Shown here piece by piece: positions 6,001 to 27,578 of a stretch of 64,000 nucleotides of DNA (position 1 is the stretch's first letter; every line of letters starts with the position of its first letter). The position numbers and the translations under genes are program-made. The DNA comes from Pocillopora verrucosa (taxonomy: Eukaryota > Cnidaria > Anthozoa > Scleractinia > Pocilloporidae). The stretch spans positions 6,353,349 through 6,417,348 of the forward strand of contig NC_089318.1 in assembly GCF_036669915.1 (NCBI RefSeq), read 5' to 3'. A model generated the notes under the pieces. That model had not been told where the DNA came from. It worked only from the letters and a program-made list of their open reading frames with translations, and searched no databases.

Positions 6001-9000
6001 CAACACCATCATCGAAAAGCCATAAGGCCTCGAGAAGACGGGGTGGCTTTGAGAACACTACTTGATGCTCCAGCTGATCTTGTTGCTGTATTTAACGCAG
6101 CAGTTGTTGACGTTGTGTTATCTGGTGCGGTTGCTGTTGATGTTGCTGAGACACGTGAAACAGCCGATTGCGTTGTTGAATCTGATACAGCAATCGAAAT
6201 ACTTGGTGTAGCAGCTGATGGTTTTGTTGAACTTGATGCAGCAAATGCTTGTGTTGTTTTTTCTGGCACAACAGTGGTTGGTGTTCTTGAATCTGATGGC
6301 AGAGGAGCTGGTGTCGTTCGTGCTCTTGAATCTGATGAAACAGATGTTAGTAATACTGTTGATGATACACCGACTGATGGTGTCGTTGAATCAACTGGAA
6401 AAGATGTTGGCGTTGATATTTTAGGCAAATCAAGCGGAGTTGTCATGGAATCCGATGTAGGAGATGTTGATGTTGTTATTGTTGTTGTTGTTTCTGAAAC
6501 GACAGACGATGATATCGATGTGACTGAGTCCGACAGAAGAGGTGTTATTGATGTCGCATTTATCATAACAGTTGGTGAGGCTGTTGAATCCACTTGAGCA
6601 GACATTGCAGTTGTTTCTGGCACAACCAGTGATGTTGTTGTTGAACTTGATGTAGTAGATATTAATGTCGTTGTCTCTGGCACAACAGTTGATTTTGCTT
6701 TTGACTCCGGAAGAAAAGTTACTGTCATTGATGTTTCTGGCACCACAGCTGATGGAGTTGTTGAATCTAATGGAACTGGTTTTGATATTGTTGAATTTGG
6801 AACAACAGCCGAGGATGTTACTGAACCTGACGGAACAGATGTTTGTTTTGATGAGGCAAACGTTGGTGTTGCTGTGGCTAGCAGATTAGTTGATGCTGTT
6901 GAATCTTCTGGAACAGATATTGGTGTTGCCATTTTTGGCACAATAACTGATGATGTCATTGAACGGGATGGGGCAGATGGTAGCATTGTTTTTTGTAGCA
7001 CAACAGGTGATGATGTCATTGAATCTGATGGAACAGCCACTAAAGTTGTTGTTTTTGACAGAAAAGATGATGTTGGTGATGAATCCAATAAAACAGATGT
7101 TTGTGTGGTTATTTCTGAAAAAACTGATAATTGTGCCGATGAATCAACTAGAGCAGATATTGGTGTTGTTGTTTCTGAAGTAACAGGTGACTTTGTTGAT
7201 GACTCAACTGGAAAAGATGATCCTGTCGTTGTTTCTGTCACCACAGCTGACGGTGTTGTTATTTTTAAAACAGCAAGAGATGTTGTTTTTGAATCAACTG
7301 GAACGGATATTGGTGTGGTTTTTTGTGTAACTAAAGGTGATGGAGTAGTTGAATTTGATGGAATATGTGTCGACGTTTTTGTTTCTGACACCGCAGCTGA
7401 TGGCGTTGTTGAGTCTTTGACAGACTTTGGTGTTATTGTACCTGTCATCATGGCGGATGATGTTGTTGAAACAACTGGGATTGGTGATGCTGTTGTTTCT
7501 GGCACTGCAGGTGATGGTGAAGTTGAATTTGATGGAACAGATGTTTGTGTTTTGATTTTTGAAACGTTCATCAGTATTGTTGAATTTACAGAAAGGGATG
7601 TTAGAGTTGTTGTTGAAGGAGTTGTCGAATCTGGTTGTGTAAATGATGGGGTCATTGTTCCTGAAGCCACAGCTAATGGTGATGTTGAATTGGATGTTTG
7701 TCTTGTTGTTTGTTGCTTGACAGAAGGATTATTTGTTGACGTTGTTGAACCAGGCACAATAGCCGAAATTGTTGTTGAATTAATTGGTAGAGGTATTGGT
7801 GTTGTTGTTCCTGGCAAAACAGGTGGTGATGTAGTTGCGTCATCTGAACCAGATGTTGACGTTGTTATGTTAGGCATAACAGCTGATGGTGTTGTTGAGG
7901 CTGCTGGAACAGAGGTCAGTGTTGCAACTTTTGGTACAACAGTTGAAGGTGTTGTTGAATTTACTTGAACAGAAGTTGAGATTGATGTTTCCGGCACGGC
8001 AGGTGATTGTGTTTTAGCCACAGCTAATGGTGATGTTGAATTGGATGTTTGTCTTGTTGTTTGTTGCTTGACAGAAGGATTATTTGTTGATGTTGTTGAA
8101 CCAGGCACAATAGCCGAAATTGTTGTTGAATTGATTGGTAGAGGTATTGGTGTTGTTGTTCCTGGCAAAACAGGTGGTGATGTAGTTGCGTCATCTGAAC
8201 CAGATGTTGACGTTGTTATGTTAGGCATAACAGCTGATGGTGTTGTTGAGGCTGCTGGAACAGAGGTCAGTGTTGCAACTTTTGGTACAACAGTTGAAGG
8301 TGTTGTTGAATTTACTTGAACAGAAGTTGAGATTGATGTATCCGGAGCGGCAGGTGATTGTGTTTTGGCCACAGCTAATGGTGATGTTGAATTGGATGTT
8401 TGTCTTGTTGTTTGTTGCTCGACAGAAGGATTATTTGTTGACGTTGTTGAACCAGGCACAATAGCCGAAATTGTTGTTGAATTAATTGGTAGAGGTATTG
8501 GTGTTGTTGTTCCTGGCAAAACAGGTGGTGATGTAGTTGCGTCATCTGGACCAGAAGTTGACGTTGTTATGTTAGGCATAACAGCTGATGGTGTTGTTGA
8601 GGCTGCTGGAACAGAGGTCAGTGTTGCAACTTTTGGTACAACAGTTGAAGGTGTTGTTGAATTTACTTGAACAGAAGTTGAGATTGATGTATCCGGCACG
8701 GCAGGTGATTGTGTTTTTGAATCAGAAATAATGTAGGTTGTTGTTGCTGCTGAAGTTGTCGGGTCAAGTGATGGTGTTGCTGAATCTACTGGGGCAGATG
8801 TTTGTGATGTGCTTTCTTGCACAACAGGTGATGGTGTTGTCGAATCAACAGGAGAAGATGTTGGTTTTTTTATTTCTGGCACAACAGTTGATGTTGTTAA
8901 ACCCACTGTAGCAGATGTGGATATTGTTCTTTCTAGCACAACAGCTGATGATGTTGTTGAATTAACTGAAGCAGGTGTTGTTGATCTTGTTTCTGACGCA

Positions 9001-10776
9001 GCAGGTAATGGTGTCGTTGAATCTAATGGAACGCTTGTCGGCACAGCTGATGGTGTGGTACCCGAAGGCACAGATGTTGGTGTTGTCGTCTTTGGCACAA
9101 CATCAGATAATATTGTTGAAGCTGATGAACCTTGTCTTGGTGTGGCTGTTCTTGATAGATAAGGTGATACTGTCTCTGTATTTATTTAAAAAAATGTAGA
9201 TGGTTGTTTTATTTAAGAGAGCGGTTGATTATGTTAGTGTTTTCGGTAGGAGAGGTGAGGGTGAAGCATTTTTCAAAATAGTATATTGCGTTATTTCAAC
9301 CTGAAAGGACATTTTACGTTGGTTTATTTGTCGTTAACGGTGTTCCATTTGTTGTGGTTTTTGTTTAGCGATTATTTTGTTGTCTGTGATGTACTACCTC
9401 GGTCAGAAATATTGAATAAGCCGGATTGATACGGAGATGGAATATTCCTAAGCAAGTGTTCAAAATTAAAGTGAAATAGATGTATCTTTCTTAGTTTAGC
9501 AAGAAAACACAACAGCGTTTCTGAATCAGTTCATTAGAAAAACGACAGGCCTGAGAAGCCACCTTGTCCCTTTTCGGCTTTAATCTTAGGTTTAAGTAAA
9601 TGTTGTTCAACTCTATGAGATGTCTACTCCTTTCCTAGGGAAGTTACCAAAAATATATACTTTGCAAATATCAGTGCTGGAAGTTAATGTTGATCCTCTG
9701 ATATTAAGAGTCACTTCTTTCACACATAACAAAAATACGAAGGGCCGAAATTCATGCCCTTTTCAATATGATCTGCCGAAAATGTCCAATATAACAATTT
9801 GCATTGATTTACTTATTTATTTTTTATATCTATCATTCTCAAATCAAGATCGTCATAGTGCATTATTCGAGTTTCGTGTTGTTTGCAATCAAAACAACCT
9901 AGCAGTCGCCAATATCAATATCATCATTCTTGAGTTATGACTTGGGTTTTTACTCAGAGCTATCAGTTAGGACAACCACGCCTTGATATTTTACAATATT
10001 TCTGAAATAAAAGGTTACAAATCTACTTTCATGGAATCGATCGCTTAACTCGACAAAAGCAAAGTCTTTATATATCTAAAGAATGATCTGGGCGATCCCT
10101 ACAGTTCCACAGTGAGAATGATTATAATTGTTATCCAGGACAAGGAAAGCGGAAGAAACGGTAAAATGAAGGGTTGAACAGTTTTTAAAAACATTGAACT
10201 ACCTCATGATTAATTTGGATTTCATAATCTTCAAAATGTTAGCTATAGAATAATTAACCCACCGAAGTAAACATCTTAAGAACAAAGCCAAAAAAAGGCT
10301 ACGAATTCGTAGGTTGAATCGTGATTTTAATATTCTATATGGAAAAAAATAATTTGGTTTCCAAATACTCAGACTCTGTGGAAATGCTATCTAGTTATAC
10401 TAAGTTACCTTCGGTGACTAGGTATTCTAAAGGTCTTAAGTTGGAGTAATGTGTAAGGTGTAAGTTTGAAACATAAAAAATACCAACTCAACGTCAAATA
10501 TACCCACGGAATATACCACGTGGAAAATCGTGCATTTTCACTAAAAATAAAGAATGAAATAAAACTTTTCATCATTCTCGGACGAGCTCCTTTTTCCAAC
10601 AAGCACATTCTATTTTGTTTTTTTAATTATTGATAGGTTATGATGTTACGTAATGCAAAACGAAGTTCTTCTTTTCACGGCGTTATCAATTACTTTCACT
10701 TACCTATCTGAGCCCAGGATTGCGTTGATAAAAATGCTATCTGTAAAGCCACTACAAACAGAAGATCGAAACGCAT
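1..10776 (-). CDS. Secreted mucin-like protein with LamG domain (3' end outside window)
   Basis: Model of five exons on the minus strand: 10776-10704, 9175-6062, 1090-1036, 739-455 and 52-1, continuing past the left edge. Exon 1 starts at an ATG and encodes a 24-residue signal peptide (MRFDLLFVVALQ...) ending at GTAAGT in phase 1. Exon 2 joins in phase and encodes about 1,038 residues rich in Ser, Thr, Pro and Val, a mucin-type O-glycosylation domain. The last three exons join in phase and give a LamG/concanavalin-A-like fold (NWTLDGTDKDV, ALYLDGKGSYADTP, FTIMCWVKV, then IWMHVVVTWD). The weakest joint is exon 2 to exon 3: the donor CAA/GTAGTG is only fair and the 4.97 kb intron could hide another exon. 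Likely an extracellular or mucus/matrix glycoprotein; ligand unknown. Confidence 0.72.
1091..6061. other. Long intron or gap with no supported gene
   Basis: This lies between the proposed mucin exon and the first LamG exon. Open frames on both strands are short, lack domain signatures and lack good splice partners. A small hairpin near 3858-3884 (GTCGGTTTC paired with an AAACCGAC arm) is visible. A missed small exon of the mucin-LamG gene cannot be excluded. Confidence 0.5.
7665..8717 (-). repeat. Three tandem 351 bp (117-residue) coding repeats in the mucin exon
   Basis: Three head-to-tail units of exactly 351 bp lie at 8717-8367, 8366-8016 and 8015-7665, in frame with the Ser/Thr/Pro-rich exon. 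Each begins with Lys-Thr-Gln-Ser-Pro-Ala and ends with Ser-Pro-Leu-Ala-Val-Ala. They differ by only a few residues, for example Pro/Ser in the SG[PS]DD segment and Glu/Lys before QQTT. The near identity points to recent unequal exchange or gene conversion, while the rest of the exon is an older and more diverged version of the same roughly 20-residue motif. Confidence 0.9.
9176..10703. other. Intron 1 of the mucin-LamG gene
   Basis: The acceptor at its end (AAATAAATACAG before position 9175) and the donor GTAAGT at 10703 are both visible on the minus strand. No other coding sequence or recognisable repeat was found in it. Confidence 0.6.
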
Positions 10777-15177: not shown

Positions 15178-17487
15178 TCAAGCGGTCGGCTGTAGGCCTT
15201 GGTAGGGAACAGAGGAACCATTTGTCTTCTTAAAGCAGCAGTGGCCCTTGGATCGGCAAAACAGAGTACCAAGGAGGCCAACACTCATTGCAATGATGAG
15301 CATCGGCCACAAAATGCAATGCAAAATCTTCATCTTATCACTTTTCACTGAAGATCTTGTTAAAAACACCTCATCAAGTTTCTTTTGATTATAGAAACAG
15401 GTGTAAGTATCATGAACTCGGCCATACTTGTTTTCGAAGCTTGATACACTTTCGACATTTCCATAAGTATTACATGGCTGAGTGCTACACTGTAACAAAA
15501 ATATAACAATAATATTATACAATGGCCAAAAAATGACAAAGTCTATCTGTAAAACTACATATTTTAGTATTTTTCTGCAACTGAAGGATTGTAATGCGAC
15601 CTACATTGTAAGAAGTCTATGTAGAAATTATGTTTTGTAAATTAAAATTATCATTATTCCTACAAATAAAAAAAATGTTTGGGAACAAAAGTAGAAAATA
15701 AGTTTACAATGCCATGTAGTTCACCATAAAACACATCTTCCCTTAAGAGTGACTGGCATCTAATTTCTCCTTACAATATCACCCTTGAATCACACATTAA
15801 AGTTATGACAATAAAGGAAATGATCACCACCTAAAGAAGCTCTTGATTGTTAAACAAATTCTCTTGTTAGCACCTTAGGAAATGTATAGAGAACAGTAAA
15901 GAGAAAATGCATAATGATGATAGGGTGCAAAAAGTTAAATGTTATTCAATCACAGAAAACACAGTGATCCTTAGTACAGGGAGAGAAAGGGTGAAAACAA
16001 GGGTACTAATAATGGTAATAGGACCAAGTGAAGTCCAATTTGGTCTGTAATCACACAAGTACTTAACAAAATTGAATGACTGTGAAGCAGGAGTCTGATT
16101 TGTTAATTATGAGTATGATTACAGACAGAATTGGACAACACAAATTTCTGTTACTAATTAATCAAAACTATGACAAAATTTGAGAAAGAAACTAGACATT
16201 GGTTATATGTTTTCATAAAAAAAAAACTGTTAACTCAGCGAATTGCAAGACAACAGGCCATGCACATGATGGGTTCTGTCCACTTACACAGGTATGATGT
16301 GTTAACTGTCCCTGTAACTGTCCTATTACACTGTCCAATTACAAGCATGATGCACACACCATCCAGTTAGTGCTCAAATCAGGCTGGTGATGACCAATCA
16401 CGTTTGAGAATTTTGTTATAGTTTTGATTGGTAATAAAACTGTTATGTTAGTCCACTAAAACCTTTTCAAAGGTGATGTGTGTGAACAATTTTGTCACTA
16501 ATTGAAGTGATAAGCTATATGAAATGTGCACTGAAAGTAAACACATGAAGGTTTTCCTTCGAACAACTAAACGTCCGGTAGTCTAATATTCGTCCATATT
16601 TCTCTTTGAAAAATACCAATTTCTATTGGAAATATTTCGTCTTCATTTAGAATCCTCAAGCGCTTCTAGAAAGTGAAAAAATTTGAACGTTGTCCAAAGA
16701 CGATTCTAGAAGGTTTCGAGTACTGCGTGTTACTCAGCCGAAAATATACTTAATAAAAACTAAAATTGTTTACTAAAAAGTCACCTCTCACCTTGTTTTT
16801 GCTGTCGTAAACATTTTCATACAGATAAGCAATGTGTTCCTCACCGCTAGCGTGGTAGCCCACTCTTATCTCGAGACAAGGGTAAGACGAAGAACAGTAC
16901 CGACCACAACTACAACTTTTATCCTCTCCTGTCATTTCACTAGAGGTGACAATGCACACGGCTTTCTTCAGCTTCATGTCGTTCATGGTGGGATGGACGA
17001 TAAGGACACCAAGCACAATAAGTAATACCAAACCTACCAGAAAGAACGAAACGCCGAGCCGGGTGAGACGGTAGGCACAGCTTCGCCGAGGGTACCTACG
17101 ACTGATGACCACCGTGTTGGCGATCCCTTGTTGGATCGTTATCTCCTGCTGCCGACGATGATTAACTTCTCCACTGACGACATTAGGACCAGGATAATAT
17201 TGTCTGGGATACCCAGTATTGTACAGATGAAATGCACCCGGCTGTTGGGAATAGGACGGTTGCTGTTGACCCTGTTGAGCGCTTCCTGCGAAGTTGGATC
17301 CAGGTTGAGTCGGCCATTGTTGTTGTATTGTGGGATTCTGAATTACTTGTGGGTTTTCCTCTCTATACTGTGGCACTTGAGTGTATGGCGGTGGAGGTTC
17401 CATTCCAGTTCCACGTTGTCCTCCGTTAGATTCGTCATTTGGGTGAACAACAGTCCCAACCAGCCTAGATTCCTTCTGGGCGTCCAT
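15178..17487 (-). CDS. BK-channel beta-subunit-like two-TM protein, paralogue 1
   Basis: Two exons, 17487-16792 and 15489-15178, joined in phase 0, give 335 residues. The ATG at 17487 is the first in frame; the frame is open upstream but reaches a stop with no other ATG. Order: a Pro/Gln-rich cytoplasmic N-terminus with PPPPY (residues 31-35), TM1 (about 144-165), a Cys-rich loop with SYPCLEI (about 202) and CFYNQKK (about 263), and TM2 preceded by LHCILWP (about 288-309). This order, with YPCL, a late CFY and an xFWP/LWP before TM2, is that of the KCNMB (Slo-beta, CaKB) family, whose members modulate large-conductance calcium-activated K+ channels. Compared with vertebrate members (about 190-280 residues) the N-terminus is unusually long. 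Family assignment is by pattern; binding to a Slo channel is inference. Confidence 0.75.
15728..15936 (+). mobile_element. MITE, subfamily B
   Basis: It carries the subfamily B core GTGACTGGCATCTAATTTC, then AAGAAGCTCTTGATTGTTAA and a GGTGCAAAAAGTTAA end. The outer ends are decayed. Confidence 0.7.
16034..16134. repeat. Inverted repeat with 20 bp arms
   Basis: TCCAATTTGGTCTGTAATCA at 16034-16053 is complementary to the arm at 16115-16134, with 18 of 20 positions paired across a loop of about 60 bp. It is probably a short non-autonomous element unrelated to the A/B/C MITEs. Confidence 0.6.
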
Positions 17488-20419
17488 GTTAAGGTTTGTC
17501 AGCAATCGCGTCTCGCAGAAATTTTTTTTAAGATCACTTTCCAAAGGAGCGTAGACACCAGGCTCAGTTAGGTAACCAAGCCTTCCAGGGATTTGTTAAC
17601 AATTCTACACTCACCTCCCCCGACTGGTTGAAGTGCGATTGGAGGGGGACAGGGAAGGGGACATTTTTGTTACTTAGGCGAGAAAAAATGAATGGGAAGT
17701 TATCTGTTAACCTTTTTTTTTTTTTTTTGAATTTTCGCGGGAAAGAATATTATCTCGCTGCGCTCCGTTCAAATACGAATCTTCTGCCTTTGGCTAAAAT
17801 ACGCTTTCTTCGTGAATTCTACTCACGGTCAAATGGAACCAAAGGGAATTTCAAACCTAGAAAATACTTGCTTCTCGATAGTGTCTTACAAGCTCTGGTC
17901 TCAGTGACATGTTTTTCCGAAGGACTCGCTGGATTACAGCACAATCGCGAGAAGTGCACCTCGTCGAGTACAGGTCTTGAAAATGTATTCAATGTTAAAA
18001 AAAAATCCCAGCAAGCAAACAACATTAACCTTTCGGTGAACTGCGTAATTGAATCAAGTACTTTTTCTGGACCGCAAAATTCGTCATAAGTGTAGTAATC
18101 CAATTATTTATTCTGGAAATTAAGCTTATTTCGACTTAATGAAGCAATTGGTATCAATCATATTAAAATACGTATTTGACAACTTGATATTCTTGTTAGA
18201 ACGTCATTGGAAGTTGTACCTCTAAAGAAGCTACGAGTAAAATCTGCACGTCTTAGTCATTTGCTTGATTATTTTTTGACGCTGTTGTGTTGCGCATTCA
18301 TCTGAAGTGTGCTTGTATGAGTTTTCAGGGTGCAAAGAGTGAAAACGGTATGCAAACCTAATAATTTCGACCCCTCCACCCCTCCCAGCCCCACCGTCTA
18401 CAAAAATGAGTAGTTTCTGGACCATATTGACTTGAAATTTTACACTTGGTAATTCCTAAATTGACTGATGCCTCACACAAGAGAAAATTATTTTCATATC
18501 ATAACTGTGCACCACTGGGGCCTTGCATTAATAAAAAGGCTATCTGGTATGTTCTACTAATTACTCTAGGTCAGATGCGTTTGCAACAAAGGATGGAAAA
18601 ATGAATTATTATTGTTATTGATATTATTATCATTATTATCATTGTGTTACATACTCTTAACCAAATTTGAAACTTTACCACTCCCCTTCCCCAAAGCAGC
18701 TACATGTGTACAATATAGGACTTTTTAAAAGTGCTCACTGTTTAATGCCTCAAGGCTTGCTGGTTTGGCAATAAATGGAAAAGTAATAAAAAAATACATT
18801 CAGTTGGATTTAAATGACTATAATATTTATATATCAATTCTATCTGAGCAATGACGCGGGATATAGAAAACAAGACATTGATTGCATTATATAAGGTGGC
18901 TTGATCCAAATGAGCCAAGAAAGCTTTTTTTTTTTTGTTTGGTACCTAATCATAAAAAAGCCCCATATTCTGTAATTGTAAGTCAAATTCAGTACTCTAA
19001 CTATATTCAATAGACCTTACTGCAGTTTTCAATACCACCTTGATGGGTTGGTGGGTAAGCGTGACCTTGCAGTATTTGCATAAGAATTCAATGTCAAATA
19101 ATTTTTGTGAAAATTCTGTTATGATGAAAATATCAGTAATGCAGCAGTTGTACACGTTACAGGAAAAGGATTCTTCTCTAAAAAAAAACTCTTCTTGCAG
19201 ACTTAAAATTTCCTGAAAAAAATAACAGACAGTGCATGGAAAATCTATTACAAACAACAGGGTAAATTCAAGGACAGGTACAGCCATAGCTACTATGAAG
19301 TAAGCATCCCTACCACTCCCGAAATGGATTATAAGTTGCCTCAGATGTCCAGGCAGTCCAGGGAACAATTTAAGCATTAACTCAGTTCTGTGAAATCAGA
19401 TTAATTGTTGCTAAGTGCATTATTTCATGACAACATACTTCAACAAGTTAGGTATACATATAGTATATACCACAAAAGCAAATGATGTCTGGTGTTATCA
19501 CTAATTGAGATATGAGATCAAGAAAGTATAAGGTTATTGATAAAGAGTTAAATTTTAGCCTAAAGCTTTCTGAGTCATTATTTTGACAATTTACTGTACG
19601 TTGTAAAATTACAAAGCAAAACACTAAATTTAGGTTGTAAAACACTAAAATACTTACTTACTTACCTTTCGGTCTCAAAACGTTCTTCTCTTTGCTGCTT
19701 TAAAAATTTGAGCTTGTGTTTTCTACACACCGAAGTTCCTTGTCTTCTCCAGTGTGATAAAAAAGGTCACGCAAGCAAGAAAAGGCTTGGGCACAAATTC
19801 GGTAGGCTTGGCTACTGAAAAAATTTTTGCTGGCGTTCTCACAAGATCCTTGAGAGTACAACGTAGTTCTCAGGGTTTTTCTCTCTTCTCCCCTAAAGAA
19901 ATACGAGAGAAGACCCTGGGAACGAGATTGTGTTTAAGCGTATTTCTCGCGCGCCCGGAAACCGTCAAGTAAAGCACCCGAAGAAGGTTTCGGTTTTACT
20001 GGAACACACCAAAAATTTCGCACCCTAGAAAAACACGTAATTTTTTTTTCCCGAAAACTGTTTACGCATGTCTTGATCTGAGATGTATCTGCCGTCGGGG
20101 CTGTCTGAATCATACCAGTACAATCGAGAAGATACAAGACGATACATGGTAAGAACATCGATAGGGAATAAAAAAAAAACGACATTTTTGAAAGACATTG
20201 GTCATCAGATGAGAGATTTTCATAGTCGGTGGCTTGATTTGAGAACAAACTTTAGCGTGACATGTGGCGCGAATTTCCTCAGAGCGTGAAGACGTAGGTG
20301 AGCATGTTGAATTAAATAAACAATTGCAATATCCTCCATTTAGCGCGAAAATAGGCACTGATACTTTTCGCGGACGTTATCTGTTCTGACAAGCGAACAG
20401 TTTTTCGAGAACAAAGCTC

Positions 20420-20666
20420 CAGGGACCAGTTGTTCGAAGGCCGATTAGCACTAGCCTGGGGTTAAATATTAATCCAGCTTTCTTTATTTCTTTGTTCAAA
20501 AATCCTTTTTAAGGAAAAATCTTCCCTATTACTTTTAGGGAATCCAATGATGAAATTGCAAGCAAAAATATTTGAACTGAACTTTCTCTTAAAGCTTTCA
20601 GACCTAAAATCAAATTTCACACTAACCCTGGGTTATCTTAACCCAGCTTTGAACAACCCGGGCCAG
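20420..20666. mobile_element. Probable MITE with imperfect terminal inverted repeats
   Basis: The left end (CAGGGACCAGTTGTTC, then CTGGGGTTAA) and the right end (TAACCCAGCTTTGAACAAC and CCGGGCCAG) are inverted copies over about 40 bp with several mismatches. No open frame inside. Confidence 0.6.
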
Positions 20667-21605
20667 AAAAATTGTAAGCTGTGAGGGATTAGGACTTCTC
20701 CGAATACAAAACAAACACTTATACGCATCCTTTATCAGGTCTGTAGCTGTTTGCGATCATTATGATACAGGAAATCCCCATTTATTGCAACGCAGAACTA
20801 GTCTGTATCCATACCTTTCACGGCTAAGCGGTTGTAGGGATCCCATTGTCATTTCAGTTACAGTTACACAGTAGGATCTAGGTACAAGATTAACAACAGC
20901 ATTGACTCCGATCTATTGAGCGACTTTCGATTGAAATAAATGTAAGCTTCTGTTCCATTGGGAGACCAGTACGAGAGAAGACCCTTTGTACAGTACTATA
21001 TACTGGACAAAATAATATTTACAAATGTAAATTACATTACAATATCCTGACTCAACATATTGAGACGACGTCCTTGCAGTCGGAACTTAGGGTGTCGGGG
21101 GGGAAAAAGACGGTACTCTATTTGCAAGGCGAAAGCAAGGATGAAAAAGCTGAGCAGCGGGGAATTTCGGTTTATTCTTCTCCCGACTCAGTGTTTGTAT
21201 CTGTTGCAGGTTCGAGATTTCTATTACTTTCCAGTCAGCTAGCGTGGAAGAAAATTTTAGATTTCTTGATTTTCTGATTTTTTATTATTACTGATTGGAA
21301 AACCTCTTGAATTGCTTCCTTACTCGGCTAAAAGATAAATTAATTATTTCCGTGTCGTATTTATTAACTGGTTATTCGCAGACTGAGCAAACCACAAAAT
21401 GAATGAAAACACTAAACATTCAAAGAGGAAAGAAAAATATAAAAAAAATAAGTAGTATAAGTAAAAAAGGTAAAACTGAAAATTTTGAAGCGTAAAAAAA
21501 ACATGACACAAGAATTATACAGTAATTACTTTCTTTTTCCGTTTCTGTAGAAATCTTTGATAATAACATATTTATATTTCGAAAATCCGAAATAAAGAGA
21601 ATTTG

Positions 21606-21840
21606 AACAGCTTTGTACTTCCACCCACTTCAACATACATGCCTTTACACATCACGACAAATGGAGTAGAACACAATCAGCCATATTCATGTTCCATCAT
21701 CCCGAGAGTATTTGTACAGCTTGGCGCTTCCACGCACTTCAGCATCGATTTCATTCTCACGTCTGCGATGACTACCTCTACAGATCACGATAAATGAAGT
21801 CGAACACAACCAGACATATATTCATGTTCCATTGTTCCGG
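21606..21840. repeat. Diverged tandem duplication 3' of the GPCR
   Basis: Two units of roughly 110 and 125 bp share the blocks CTTCCACCCACTTCA / CTTCCACGCACTTCA and ATTCATGTTCCAT in the same order. Non-coding; possibly part of the GPCR 3' UTR. Confidence 0.6.
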
Positions 21841-21879
21841 CGAATTAACAAACTGAGTTGCAGATTACTTGGATAGTTT

Positions 21880-22893
21880 TCAATTGGCGGTGAGCTCTGT
21901 GTTGCGAGGGTTTCGACTCGAAAACGAAGTTAAATCCACTTGCAAATTTTGCCGTCTTGAGTTTCTTTTCCTTAACGAAAACATCTTTCCATATTCTCTT
22001 CTGAAACTCCTGTTTAGGAAACCGTATATAAAAGGATTAATGGCTCCTGACAAATTTCCCAGAATTAGGTAAAAAACATAGACCTGTCTCGGAAGAGACA
22101 CTTCACCCCGGAACGTGTCTACAAAATCTATGACCGCAATCGGGGTCCAACAGGCCAAAAATCCTATCACGGTGATGAACAGAATCTTTGTAACTCTGAT
22201 ATCTGCATGAGTTATGTTGTCCACAGCCATAGCACACGATCGCAAATTTTGAACTGTTCTCCGGTGAATACGCATTTGTCTGAAGACAAGAGCATAGCAT
22301 ATGGTTAAAGTGAAAGTAGGCAAGCCGACGTAGAAATACACGATGAAGTTTGGAAGGGAAATCTCACCTGTCTGAAAGCAAAACAACTTTCCGGGATGAA
22401 AGACATAACGTCGACCCGAAAGTAAATAAGGTAATGGTTCCAAGCAAGCTAAGCCGACTCCAAATGCTATCATAGTTGAGGTTTTCCACTTTGTAAAAAT
22501 TTGCCGATAATGTTTCGTTAGGACCATTCGGTAAAATCGATTGATCGCGGTCAGGGTTAAGGTTAGCAAAGAGGCGCAAGCTAAAATTATGACGAAAAAT
22601 CCTTGACTTTGGCAAACGCTATCATTAAATGGCCAGTAACCAACGATGGCAACAGCTATAGAATACGGAGCACACAGTAAAGGTAAAAGAATATCAGAGA
22701 TCGCCAGAGACACAATGAAGTAGTTAGGAATCGTTCGCAGTCTTGAGTTTCTGTACACTGCCAGAAGAACACAGGAGTTTCCAACGACTGCCACCGAAAT
22801 TGTTAACAGATAGAAAAACGTTTCAAATATCACAACCTTCTGATCTCGGTTTAAAAGTTCTTTTGCCAAGTTTTCGATTCCTTTCAGCCGCAT
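21880..22893 (-). CDS. Class A (rhodopsin-type) GPCR, melatonin-receptor-like, intronless
   Basis: A single exon encodes 337 residues with seven hydrophobic segments. Landmarks: GNS in TM1 (Asn39), SDILL in TM2 (Asp67), Cys94 and Cys172 for the extracellular disulfide, INRFYRM at the end of TM3 (117-123), CWTP in TM6 (248-251) and NPFIY in TM7 (286-290). The Asn-Arg-Phe in place of Asp-Arg-Tyr and the NPFIYG ending resemble melatonin-type receptors, which carry NRY. Ligand unknown; in cnidarians this class is large and mostly orphan, so the melatonin label is similarity only. The ATG lies inside an exact 326 bp tandem duplication that also copies its 5' flank. Confidence 0.88.
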   Translation of the reverse strand: MRLKGIENLAKELLNRDQKVVIFETFFYLLTISVAVVGNSCVLLAVYRNSRLRTIPNYFIVSLAISDILLPLLCAPYSIAVAIVGYWPFNDSVCQSQGFFVIILACASLLTLTLTAINRFYRMVLTKHYRQIFTKWKTSTMIAFGVGLACLEPLPYLLSGRRYVFHPGKLFCFQTGEISLPNFIVYFYVGLPTFTLTICYALVFRQMRIHRRTVQNLRSCAMAVDNITHADIRVTKILFITVIGFLACWTPIAVIDFVDTFRGEVSLPRQVYVFYLILGNLSGAINPFIYGFLNRSFRREYGKMFSLRKRNSRRQNLQVDLTSFSSRNPRNTELTAN

Positions 22894-23348
22894 CGTCGTC
22901 CTCTAACACAGGAAGAAAATTCTGTTTAACGATGACTGTGATTGATGGACACTAACTAGCTTTAGGCTCGCACTTAAGCTAGCATCTAATGACGAAAAGT
23001 GGCATGAAACAGTATGAGAAACGAGATCGCCAGAGACACAATGAAGTAGTTAGGAATCGTTCGCAGTCTTGAGTTTCTGTACACTGCCAGAAGAACACAG
23101 GAGTTTCCAACGACTGCCACCGAAATTGTTAACAGATAGAAAAACGTTTCAAATATCACAACCTTCTGATCTCGGTTTAAAAGTTCTTTTGCCAAGTTTT
23201 CGATTCCTTTCAGCCGCATCGTCGTCCTCTAACACAGGAAGAAAATTCTGTTTAACGATGACTGTGATTGATGGACACTAACTAGCTTTAGGCTCGCACT
23301 TAAGCTAGCATCTAATGACGAAAAGTGGCATGAAACAGTATGAGAAAC
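22697..23348. repeat. Exact 326 bp tandem duplication over the GPCR 5' end
   Basis: Copy 1 is 22697-23022 and copy 2 is 23023-23348; by eye I find no difference between them. The unit spans GPCR codons 1 to about 66 and about 130 bp of 5' flank. It is either a very recent duplication or an assembly artefact. Confidence 0.92.
22986..23219 (-). pseudogene. Truncated duplicate of the GPCR 5' coding region
   Basis: This second copy of the GPCR start encodes the same first 65 residues (through IVSLAIS) and then runs into the duplicated upstream flank, adding 12 unrelated residues before a stop. It covers only TM1 and part of TM2 and so cannot form a receptor. Because it also carries the duplicated 5' flank, transcription may start from it. 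Confidence 0.85.
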
Positions 23349-24120
23349 GTTTTGGAACGTTGCCCACCGCACTTCCTTTGTCCATTTCGCTTTCGTAACA
23401 CTTTCTGCTTACGTAAATCCCTTCCCCTCACGATCTCGCGAGGCTCTCGCTCCGTCTGCATTGGGAAGGTTTCACGGTTCCCTATCTTCGGCTACTGCAG
23501 ATAGCACAAGCCTCGCAATCGGCCATGATCATCCTCGCCACATACGATAATTTTTAGAGTCAGGTTGTCTTTTCCCCATTTGAACCACTGAAAGTAACTT
23601 TTGAAATAGCAGGGACTCGAGATTTTATCCGATGTAAAATTACAGAGACACACAGCCCGGCTCAAGCCGCATCTGGGGATGCGCCCCTTTCATTACCTGG
23701 CCGTTGGAGGTCTGCGTACGAGATAAAAGGGAGTTTAAGACATCTGTCGGAAAAGGATACTCTGTTAGAACGTTAAGGGTTATAAACAACTGAAAACATG
23801 TTGACGAGGAGGCACTGGAAACCATAGTGAGGAAACCTTTCTTTATAATTTTAGTTTTAATATACGACCGCTTTGCAGCTACAATTCTGAGTAATTTGTG
23901 AAATTACCTAAACGATACGCGCCTATAAGCCCAATGTGGAGTTTCTTTCTTTTATTTGGTGTAACTCTGAAAGTTGACGATCATTTGTCAGAGCAGACCT
24001 GAAGCAGACTTGGTCAATGTCAACTTTATCTGTGCGATATCAGGGATCGATAGCTGCAAAGAAAGAACTTTAAAAAAAAAGAAGGCAAAAGGATGCAGCT
24101 TTAAAATCAGGGGTAACTTC
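23349..24120. other. Intergenic, nothing recognised
   Basis: This is the upstream flank of the GPCR duplication up to the TTAA-flanked transposon. No coding, RNA or repeat feature was recognised. Confidence 0.5.
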
Positions 24121-26156
24121 TTAAGGCGGGGGTAAACCTGAAAAAATGCCCATTTTTCACTCATTTTTCACAGCTAGGACTTAATTCAAAACTTAGGCAA
24201 ACTATATATCCCTGGAAAGCTTATGACTTGAAGATCATGGAAAAAAATATTTCAGACTCAACATGTCAATTGTAATAGGATACCACTCATTTAATTGAGC
24301 CACCTGCTGGGTTCTACCAGGGGTTACTTCAGAAAAGATAACTCCTTCTGGAATTAATGAAAAATAACGTTTTTAGTATCAATTCAAAGAAGACATGTTG
24401 CTTATTGTTATAAGCAGAGGGATTTCTAATATGTTGAAAACATTTTAAATGATGATCAATTAAATTTGACATGGAAAATCAGAGGGGTGTTTCACTTCAT
24501 AACTTTAAGTACATACATCATATGGAAAATTGCTCTGCTTATAACACAAAACTTATCAAAAGGAACAAATGCTGAAAATTTCATATCAATTGGATAAATT
24601 GTTGTCAAGATATCCTTTCTGGAAGACAAAATTATTGCGTAATGAGAAAATGGCCTTTAAACTTACAGATAGCAATCAAACTTAATTTTTTACAATATGT
24701 AACCACTATAGTGGCCCAAGTGTCCATATTTTGTCCACAGGAGTATCTAAAAGTAATTTAAAAACATCCTGGTTCATAAGTAACTCCTTCAGCTTCTCGA
24801 AGGGCTTCCTCTCGACGAGTCCTCAGAAGTCGCTCCCCTTGACGCCGTCTCTTTTCCTTCTGCATAACCTGCAAATCGGACTTAGCCTATCTTTTACTGT
24901 CTTTTGCATGTGTTGCCACTCTTGTACAAACACCACCAGGGATACAAAGCCTCTCCATGATTTTTAGCCTACTAAAAGACTCGGTGGTTAATGTCATATG
25001 ATTTCCCTAACTGGGTCACACCACTGGATGGTGGAAGTGGACTGGATTCCTCACAGGAACTACACTGAAGGGAAAACTGTAACCCCCACTCTTGCACTTT
25101 TATCTTCCTCAAGAGTTAAGGTGCCTAAAGACAAATCAAGTGAAAATTTTTAGATAAATCGGGCAATTTTGTTATAAGCAAAGTAAAGACCTCAAGTCAG
25201 AAATACACATTCTGTGATTTTTCCCCATAATTTTTTGTTTACAGTGTATATGCACAATACCTAAAAATCTTTCTCTTACCCAATCCAAGATTTAATAGAT
25301 AAATCAGTGTATTTAGCAGGGAAAAACTGGAACTATGGGTCGATATGATATGGGAAATAAGTCATAATCGAGAACAGAGAAAGACAGAGATTTAAAAAAT
25401 TTCTCACCTTTCTCACACACGTGTGCCTTTGAGACGGCCGTGGATAAATTTTTCTCATTTATTAATCTAAATCCCTCGCTTTCCTCGGTATTGAAGGTAT
25501 ACTCTTCATCAGAGCTGTCTAAAAGAAGCGGCATATTTCATTTTCTTTCTGGAGGAACCAACGGTTTCTTTAGAGTCCGAGTCAGAGAGCTGATTTTCAT
25601 CCAGCGAAGTGCTCGGAGTTGAGGCGGCGATTTCGTCAACATCGGGAGCTGTTTCTTCAGACTCTTGTTTTGTTTTCGCCTTCCAGAAAAACTTCTCTTT
25701 CTTTTCTTCCTGTAGACAGATCTACTTTTCTTTCCGACCATTTTCGATATAACTTTTCCTTTGATTATAACTTTTCCTTTGATTGCTCCGAGTACACCGA
25801 GTGTCACATTCGACAGAAACTGCCTCTAAATCTATCCCATAATGGGTTTGACCCTAGAAAACCCTTCAGATAAGACTACATAAAGTATCTCTCGTTAAAT
25901 CCTGCCCGTTTGGGAGCTTGGTTGCCAGAATAACACATCATAAACAACTGAAAAATCAAAAAATGCTCTTCTCGTTGCCATGGTAACCACACCATTAACC
26001 AGAGCGGGAATTTTGAAATCGCTCAAAAAGGCAAAAATAGTGAAAATAAGTAGAAAATTATTTTTCCACAGCGAAGTTGAATACCCAAAGCTGCAAATTC
26101 CGAGGAAAACAAAAAACTCAGTTTTTGAGCAAATTTCAGGTTTACCCCCGCCTTAA
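24121..26156. mobile_element. Decayed TTAA-flanked DNA transposon
   Basis: The 2,028 bp body (24125-26152) begins GGCGGGGGTAAACCTGAAA and ends with its inverse complement, and both ends abut TTAA (24121-24124, 26153-26156). A TTAA target duplication is typical of the piggyBac and Kolobok superfamilies. The interior holds broken coding remnants on the minus strand: a very basic start (MVGKKSRSVYRKKRKRS, from 25741), an acidic segment (DSSDEEYTFNTEESEGF, near 25500), and a piece near 24760-24850 reading as EREALREAEGV-type sequence with a stop after it. Frame changes between these pieces show that the element is dead. Confidence 0.82.
25313..25807 (-). pseudogene. Broken transposase-like reading frames inside the TTAA element
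   Basis: A start region with 10 or more Lys/Arg (from the ATG at 25741) is followed in other frames by an acidic Ser-rich linker and a GFRLINEKNLSTAV segment, ending at a possible donor AAAG/GTGAGA near 25407. Basic-then-acidic openings of this kind are common in cnidarian transposon proteins. The changes of frame imply at least two disabling indels. The exact superfamily was not identified. Confidence 0.55.
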
Positions 26157-26319
26157 GACAGAGGAAAATCTCTGAGATGTGATCCGTATGATAATAAAAG
26201 GTTAAAGGCACTTGAAAATCGAAAACAGATTGAAACAATAACCTAACTATATGCTTGATTCAACCACACATTAATACGATAGCTAATCTTTCATACAATT
26301 TATGATAAAATGTTTATGA

Positions 26320-27578
26320 TTAGGCCATTGACGAAAGATCTTGATATGGAACAGAACTGGAGGATTCATTCTGCTTCCTGTAACGGCAGTGTCCTTTATC
26401 TCGGCAAAACCCTATACCCAGAAAGACGATGCCGATAACCAAAACTAGCCCTGGCCACAAGAAGGAATGCATCAACTTCATGCCATCACTCTTCAAAAGT
26501 CTTTTTGTAAAAGCTTCGTTGAGATTTTTGGGATTGTAGTAACAAGTGTACGTGTCGTTAACTCCACCATAATTAATCCAAAACACTGTCACATTTCCAT
26601 CATTATTGACGTCGAGGCAGTCACACGGCTGAGTGCTGCACTAAAAATTTAAAAAATAAAAAATAATAAAAGGCATAAGTTTCTTGAAAAGTACAAAATA
26701 ATTATCAGGAAGGTGGAGTTTGGGTCTAGGTTCGAAATGGTTCCCAGGACTTTCCGACGTTCTTCAGCCCAAATGCAAATGAAAAACAAAACTAGCTACT
26801 GAAATGACATGTGCAATGATATAACTCTTAAACAAAGGCGTTAAAAAAAAAAAAAAGCGTTAGTTATGTGAAGTTCAGCGAAACTGATTTGATACCTATG
26901 TAAATAATGTCTTCATTCATTATCAGATCAAATTGTAGTGTTCCAACTGCGCATGCTCTTCTGTTATGGTTTTTTTTTTCGGTGCGCTGTCATTGGTGCA
27001 TTTTGACCTTCATCTTTATTAAAAGCCACTTATTTAGAAGTGGCCCTTAGGCTGAATTACAATTATTATTCAAATATGAAGTGAAAGATTGTCATTTACA
27101 CGGACAATTGATGACTAATTCTGTTTGCTACCTTTGCGCGATCTTCCCAAATCAACGTATTACTACGTATACATACATTTCCTGACACGAAGATCATTTC
27201 ATGAAATCCCGCCGTATTTCCAGATCTTACCTTATTTTTCTGCTTGTAACTATTTTCATACAGATAGGCTGTGTGCTCTTCACCGTTCGCGTACAAGGCA
27301 ACTTCTATCAGAAGGCAAGGGTAGGACGACTTAGACGACATGAAAGAGGGCACGGTGTTCGTGCAACTACAATTCATCCTTTCGCTTGCTACTCCAGTGG
27401 ATAAGACTCTACACTCGGACGTTTTCAGTTCCATGTCGTACACTGCGAAACGTGCAACTGTGAGACCAAGCACTATCGCGGCCACAACACTAATCAGCGA
27501 CAAAAAAATCCCTAACCCTGTAAAATCAAGGCCAGTTCTATGTTTTTGAGACCTCTCCGAGACCTTCTCGTGTTCCAT
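26320..27578 (-). CDS. BK-channel beta-subunit-like two-TM protein, paralogue 2
   Basis: Two exons, 27578-27231 and 26640-26320, joined in phase 0, give 222 residues, close to the size of vertebrate KCNMB proteins. TM1 is at about 20-43 and TM2 at about 172-194. The loop carries SSYPCLLIEV (about 84), CSTQPC at the start of exon 2, TYTCYYNPKN (about 146) and SFLWP before TM2. Intron position and phase, the CSTQPC start of exon 2, YPCL, EEHxAYLYEN and the Cys-Lys-Gly-His-Cys motif after TM2 are shared with the paralogue at 15.2-17.5 kb, so the two arose by duplication. It lacks the long Pro/Gln-rich N-terminus and PPPPY. ATG choice: the open frame extends upstream, but 27578 is the first ATG. 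Confidence 0.75.

Follow-up and report, generated by a model that had tools for sequence, protein, structure and literature searches.

Do two neighboring genes in the genome of a probable stony coral, here called A and B, encode beta subunits of BK (Slo1) channels, and if so, what does their presence say about the age of this kind of auxiliary subunit? Both genes consist of two exons on the minus strand of the analyzed window, a stretch of 64,000 nucleotides at positions C7:6353349-6417348 of a 353-Mb assembly of 52 contigs (coordinates without a contig name refer to this window). A first, sequence-only reading had described them as a pair of KCNMB-like genes, which would either push back the origin of the KCNMB family or represent an unrecognized related family.

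A separate observation concerns the mitochondrial DNA in the same assembly. On a contig of 66 kb (C30), cox1 occurs in three copies that lie ~17.41 kb apart, and 10 TGA codons inside each cox1 are read through. This contig is probably a circular mitochondrial genome that was assembled as tandem copies. Within one repeat unit, ARAGORN in strict mode identified tRNA-Met only, while its loose mitochondrial mode added tRNA-Trp (TCA) and four more tRNA calls, the latter four being regarded as noise. A mitochondrial genome of ~17.41 kb with just tRNA-Met and tRNA-Trp would fit the pattern of stony corals and other hexacorals, which supports a cnidarian source as probable.

Exon-Intron Organization and Predicted Proteins

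Gene A encodes a product of 335 aa (335 codons) and ends at position 15178, the last base of its stop codon. Its first exon (16792..17487, minus strand; 232 codons) begins with the first Met of the open frame and codes for a Pro/Gln-rich N-tail of ~138 aa, which contains a PPPPY stretch ahead of the first transmembrane helix (TM1), followed by TM1 itself and the early part of a Cys-rich loop. It terminates in phase 0 at the donor GTGAGA and scored 44.2 bits with the Pfam model CaKB in a six-frame scan. The GT-AG intron (15490..16791, minus strand; 1302 bp, phase 0) directly abuts the cysteine that opens the CSTQPC motif of exon 2 (15178..15489, minus strand). This second exon contributes the remaining loop (CSTQPC...YTCFYN), the ILWP motif, TM2 and a C-tail that ends in ...SSVPYQGLQPTA, and by itself reached 26.4 bits with CaKB in the same scan.

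Gene B is shorter (222 aa, 222 codons) and starts at position 27578, the first base of its start codon. Exon 1 (27231..27578, minus strand) likewise opens with the first Met of the frame, encodes a short N-tail, TM1 and the early loop (CaKB, 41.1 bits in the six-frame scan), and ends in phase 0 at the donor GTAAGA. It is followed by a GT-AG intron of 590 bp (26641..27230, minus strand; phase 0), which occupies the same position as in gene A, and by exon 2 (26320..26640, minus strand) with the remaining loop (CSTQPC...YTCYYN), FLWP, TM2 and a C-tail ending in ...SSVPYQDLSSMA. This exon yielded no CaKB match by itself in the six-frame scan; the spliced gene B protein scored 82 bits. A further coding exon may exist upstream of either gene.

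Hydropathy analysis located hydrophobic segments at residues 139-171 and 285-310 of A and at residues 15-49 and 170-199 of B. Both proteins thus show two hydropathy peaks corresponding to two TM helices, with a loop of ~120 aa between them that is predicted to be extracellular. The loop carries SSYPCL in both proteins, and the features from which the family had been recognized by eye, i.e., two TMs, a Cys-rich loop, YPCL, a late CFY or CYY and [IF]LWP before TM2, were all recovered in both genes. The same is true of the common intron, which is in phase 0 and followed by an exon 2 starting with CSTQPC in each case. The C-tails contain VPYQGL in A and VPYQDL in B and hence share a YQ[GD]L motif; VPYQGL and VPYQDL both fit the Yxx-hydrophobic pattern that is typical of endocytic sorting signals. 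Overall, the two proteins share 48.5% identity over 198 positions (MAFFT).

Other features were noted in the window. An unrelated gene for a rhodopsin-type G protein-coupled receptor (GPCR; ~21880-22893, minus strand; 7tm_1, 129.9 bits) is situated between A and B. Its 5' part is duplicated by a perfect direct repeat of 300 nt (22697-22996 and 23023-23322, spacing 326), which reflects either a tandem duplication of recent date or an error of the assembly. At 6012-9185, the minus strand exhibits an open frame of 1058 aa with Thr/Ser/Pro-rich repeats that appear mucin-like by eye; an open frame of 456 aa runs on the opposite strand, and the 1058-aa frame coincides with a block of strong GC skew (6001-10000).

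Assignment to the CaKB Family

The Pfam profile CaKB (PF03185), whose search had been named in advance as the test of a KCNMB-like identity, matched both proteins by a wide margin. A scored 83 bits (E = 2.9e-23, profile positions 9-175 of 195) and B 82 bits (E = 6.1e-23, positions 13-181 of 195), with the gathering cut-off of the model at 25.1 bits. No Pfam family besides CaKB was found for either protein at E ≤ 1. Among all PDB chains, A matched three and B two distinct sequences at E ≤ 1, every one of them a BK beta subunit. The best matches were 9czh (a beta2/beta4 construct, 6.7e-19) and 6v22 (beta4, 7.6e-19) for A, and 6v22 (5.1e-13) for B. Neither of the outcomes named in advance as refuting the assignment, a missing CaKB match or a closer match to some other two-TM family, was thus encountered, and the suggestion of an unrecognized related family gives way to a known one, CaKB. 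As controls, the CaKB model found matches in none of 14 control genomes, and the neighboring GPCR was without a CaKB match at E ≤ 0.01.

A pair of TM helices with a Cys-rich loop is a simple build that could, in principle, have arisen by convergence in proteins without kinship to KCNMB. This is highly improbable, as the profile matches extend across most of the domain at E-values of about 1e-23, PDB matches at E ≤ 1 are solely BK beta chains, and the order of the cysteines as well as the YPC, C[FY]xN and WP motifs agree. At the level of sequence, the profile and PDB scores rule convergence out. Judged by these comparisons, the homology of A and B to BK-channel beta subunits is nearly certain, and the two genes are tandem-duplicated members of the Slo-beta/KCNMB/CaKB family. 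An identity with the insect TipE family (PF16972) was also considered and rejected, as all seven proteins of the coral family (see below) were without a TipE match at E ≤ 1. A genome search with the TipE model likewise gave no match, a result of little weight since this model was also silent in all control genomes.

Related Genes in the Genome

While both members of the pair proposed by the sequence-only reading are real, they belong to a larger set. The six-frame scan of the 353-Mb genome with CaKB returned seven matches at E ≤ 0.001, all above the cut-off and all representing exons of CaKB genes or of a broken copy. Two of them are the exons of A and one is the first exon of B; gene C, a broken copy of C, gene D and gene E account for one match each. 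Protein searches added two genes, F and G, which are absent from the scan matches. The genome thus contains at least seven open-frame CaKB genes (A-G) and one broken copy, counts that are lower bounds because only the best candidates were scored. Gene C consists of a single exon on contig C1, and D to G are located on C7, where F and G form a diverged tandem at C7:636107-641058. The CaKB scores of 51.9 (C), 77.5 (D), 57.6 (E), 50.4 (F) and 31.2 bits (G) place, together with those of A and B, seven of seven proteins above the cut-off. A weak additional place was found on C10 (E = 0.048, protein search). The broken copy of C (C1:18395086-18395439) lies in tandem with C at a distance of ~6 kb and has an interrupted reading frame; it shares 96.9% DNA identity with C over 684 bases with one gap.

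An intron in phase 0, directly before the Cys that opens exon 2, is present in all six two-exon genes. The second exon starts with CSTQPC in A and B, CTYGPPC in D, CTLKPPSC in E, CTLPPEQC in F and CTRKLDSIC in G; the splices of D and E were checked. Because the same phase-0 site is used in all six genes, the common intron probably predates the duplications that gave rise to A-G. Gene C has no intron at this site and may be a retrocopy. Several paralogs have lost conserved elements of the domain: C is without the WP motif before TM2, F lacks two of eight loop cysteines, and G is without YPC and the late loop Cys, yet has kept the common intron. In an eight-row tree, only the grouping of A and B was firm (100/98), F and G were joined with 91/98, and C, D and E formed long branches.

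Candidate Partner Channels and Proposed Function

A natural partner is present at a Slo1-type locus on contig C5, which is represented by an RCK1 piece and a calcium-bowl piece. The BK_channel_a model gave four matches at two loci, on C4 and C5, and a Slo-like RCK model matched three times, twice on C5 and once on C4. For the RCK1 piece on C5, 26 of 27 PDB matches at E ≤ 0.1 were of the Slo1/BK type (best E = 1.3e-9), the remaining one being a KCNU1 (Slo3) sequence with E = 0.0031. For the calcium-bowl piece, all 26 PDB matches at E ≤ 0.001 were of the Slo1/BK type (best E = 6.8e-16). The pore exon of the C4 locus matched KCNT1 (Slo2) best. A regular-expression search of 60 kb around the C5 locus did not return the Slo1 pore signature, which may be split by an intron or be situated outside these 60 kb.

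By analogy with the vertebrate system, A and B are probably BK beta subunits (Slo-beta) that act as auxiliary proteins of the coral's own Slo1, a partner suggested by sequence kinship. The proteins would span the membrane twice, their two termini facing the cytoplasm and their disulfide-linked loop folding on the outer side. In the human Slo1-beta4 structure, four beta4 subunits with four disulfides each are described, which are seated between the voltage sensors mainly via their TM helices and form a crown capping the pore (PMC6934384). If A and B behave like human beta4, as many as four copies would insert between the voltage sensors of the coral Slo1; the base of TM1 and the N-tail would alter the closed-open equilibrium of the channel, and a crown above the pore would be built by the loops. 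The shared YQ[GD]L motif of the tails might in addition serve trafficking. From the same analogy, we infer the topology, the tetrameric assembly and the direction of modulation for A and B.

The main doubt concerns the partner of A and B, which is unreadable from homology alone, because the distant TipE relatives in insects act on a Nav channel and not on Slowpoke. Insect TipE is described as acting on the Para Nav channel with no effect on Slowpoke currents, and TipE and Slo-beta are reported as homologous (PMC3240667). It is therefore conceivable that A and B are true members of a Slo-beta/TipE superfamily and, as insect TipE does, regulate another channel such as a cnidarian Nav or Slo2. 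A Slo2-type locus also exists in the genome, and seven genes exceed the need of the single Slo1-type locus that was found. Against this stand the strong CaKB scores of A and B in the absence of any TipE match at E ≤ 1, the restriction of the PDB matches to BK beta subunits and, with little weight given its silence in the control genomes as well, the genome-wide silence of the TipE model. Regulation of another channel is thus unlikely, albeit deserving of some attention.

A further scenario, which is compatible with A and B acting as Slo1 beta subunits, restricts this role to some of the genes, while the diverged paralogs C, E, F and G have lost it in favor of trafficking, adhesion or other partners. 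The missing WP motif of C, the missing YPC and late loop Cys of G and the two missing loop cysteines of F are in agreement with such a change, as are the long branches of C, D and E and the difference between the CaKB scores of C, E, F and G (51.9, 57.6, 50.4 and 31.2 bits) and those of A, B and D (83, 82 and 77.5 bits). On the other hand, none of these proteins scores below the cut-off of the family, and the common intron persists in E, F and G. A loss of the role in these paralogs is accordingly a serious possibility that falls somewhat short of an even chance, and the assignment of A and B as Slo1 beta subunits is unaffected by it.

Evolutionary Origin of the Family

An origin of the family pushed back in time, as the sequence-only reading had proposed, does follow if the genome is cnidarian, which the mitochondrial data suggest; the idea of an early-animal ancestor of Slo-beta and TipE had, however, been put forward before. 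Li et al. (2011) linked insect TipE to vertebrate KCNMB4, which they report as the connecting member, proposed a common Slo-beta/TipE ancestor for metazoans and left undecided whether the channel of this ancestor was a potassium or a sodium channel (PMC3240667). Among the proteomes on which their TipE profiles were run are those of Nematostella, Hydra, sea urchin and amphioxus, and arthropod proteomes are named for the reciprocal search with a KCNMB4 profile (PMC3240667). A 2019 paper regards the auxiliary subunits of mammals as a novelty in comparison with invertebrates, and a 2022 study on tunicates names KCNMB3 in Ciona (PMC8803312). Among the publications listed in literature searches for a connection with cnidarians, corals or TipE, not one refers to a cnidarian KCNMB in its title or at the start of its abstract. 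Automatic annotation in public databases may well carry such names already, and cnidarian sequences may also be part of the Pfam model. A and B are proteins of a familiar kind that turn up in a lineage where they were not expected, and the interest of the find is a clean, multi-gene KCNMB-like family of a probable cnidarian beside a Slo1 with a calcium bowl.

These findings suggest that channel helpers of the beta-subunit kind arose before corals diverged from the lineage leading to vertebrates. A more extensive scenario, to which we give slightly better than even odds, places Slo-beta in the cnidarian-bilaterian ancestor, so that modulation of Slo1 by a two-TM crown would be no vertebrate invention. 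Most protostomes would then have lost Slo-beta or turned it into TipE, and anthozoans would have expanded it to at least seven genes for the tuning of Slo1 in distinct types of cell. The KCNMB-like coral family provides an outgroup for the Slo-beta/TipE question, in which it favors a Slo-beta-like ancestor, and makes it testable whether the ancestral partner was a potassium or a sodium channel.

Comparison With Known Auxiliary Subunits

Auxiliary proteins of invertebrate Slo1 are known from C. elegans, and are set beside the coral family here by their descriptions. ISLO-1 was likened to beta subunits because of its two TM domains and is characterized in the same report as being without obvious homology to known proteins (PMC2788698), and BKIP-1 is a further partner of SLO-1 (PMC5736756). 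The insect proteins TipE and Teh1-4, auxiliary subunits of Nav channels, resemble A and B in their two TM helices and extracellular Cys loop and are reported as distant relatives of KCNMB4 (PMC3240667). In contrast to these PF16972 proteins, none of the seven coral proteins matches the TipE model at E ≤ 1.

The closest likeness is to vertebrate KCNMB1-4, for which human beta4 (6v22) was compared. Orthology to one particular KCNMB subtype was dropped, since beta4, the one vertebrate sequence included, remained unplaced in the eight-row tree. Unlike beta4, A possesses the Pro/Gln-rich N-tail of ~138 aa, and B keeps fewer than all eight loop cysteines: it pairs with six of the eight in the beta4 segment in the phmmer alignment and with seven of eight, plus an extra Cys elsewhere, in the MAFFT alignment. 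The corresponding values for A are eight (phmmer) and seven (MAFFT) of eight. One loop N-glycosylation site is reported as conserved in all beta subunits (PMC6934384), a trait described for known beta subunits that lies outside the Pfam definition. In the alignment, neither loop sequon of beta4 (N53 and N90, counted along the chain) is kept in A or B; the loop of A is without a sequon, and those in the loop of B (N69, N132 and N144) are not aligned with the beta4 sequons. Of the acidic residues E64 and E67 of beta4, which are said to line a cage beneath the crown (PMC6934384), A and B keep E64 only (MAFFT, numbering counted from the chain). Nevertheless, A and B share with beta4 the two TM helices, the Cys-rich loop with largely matching cysteines, and the motifs YPC, C[FY]xN and LWP before TM2. 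Identity to beta4 amounts to 31.3% over 163 positions for A and 26.9% over 167 positions for B (MAFFT), and A is 22.7-29.6% identical to its paralogs C-G over the same columns. By this measure, A is about as near to human beta4 as to the members of its own family, with the exception of B, the value for beta4 being slightly the higher.
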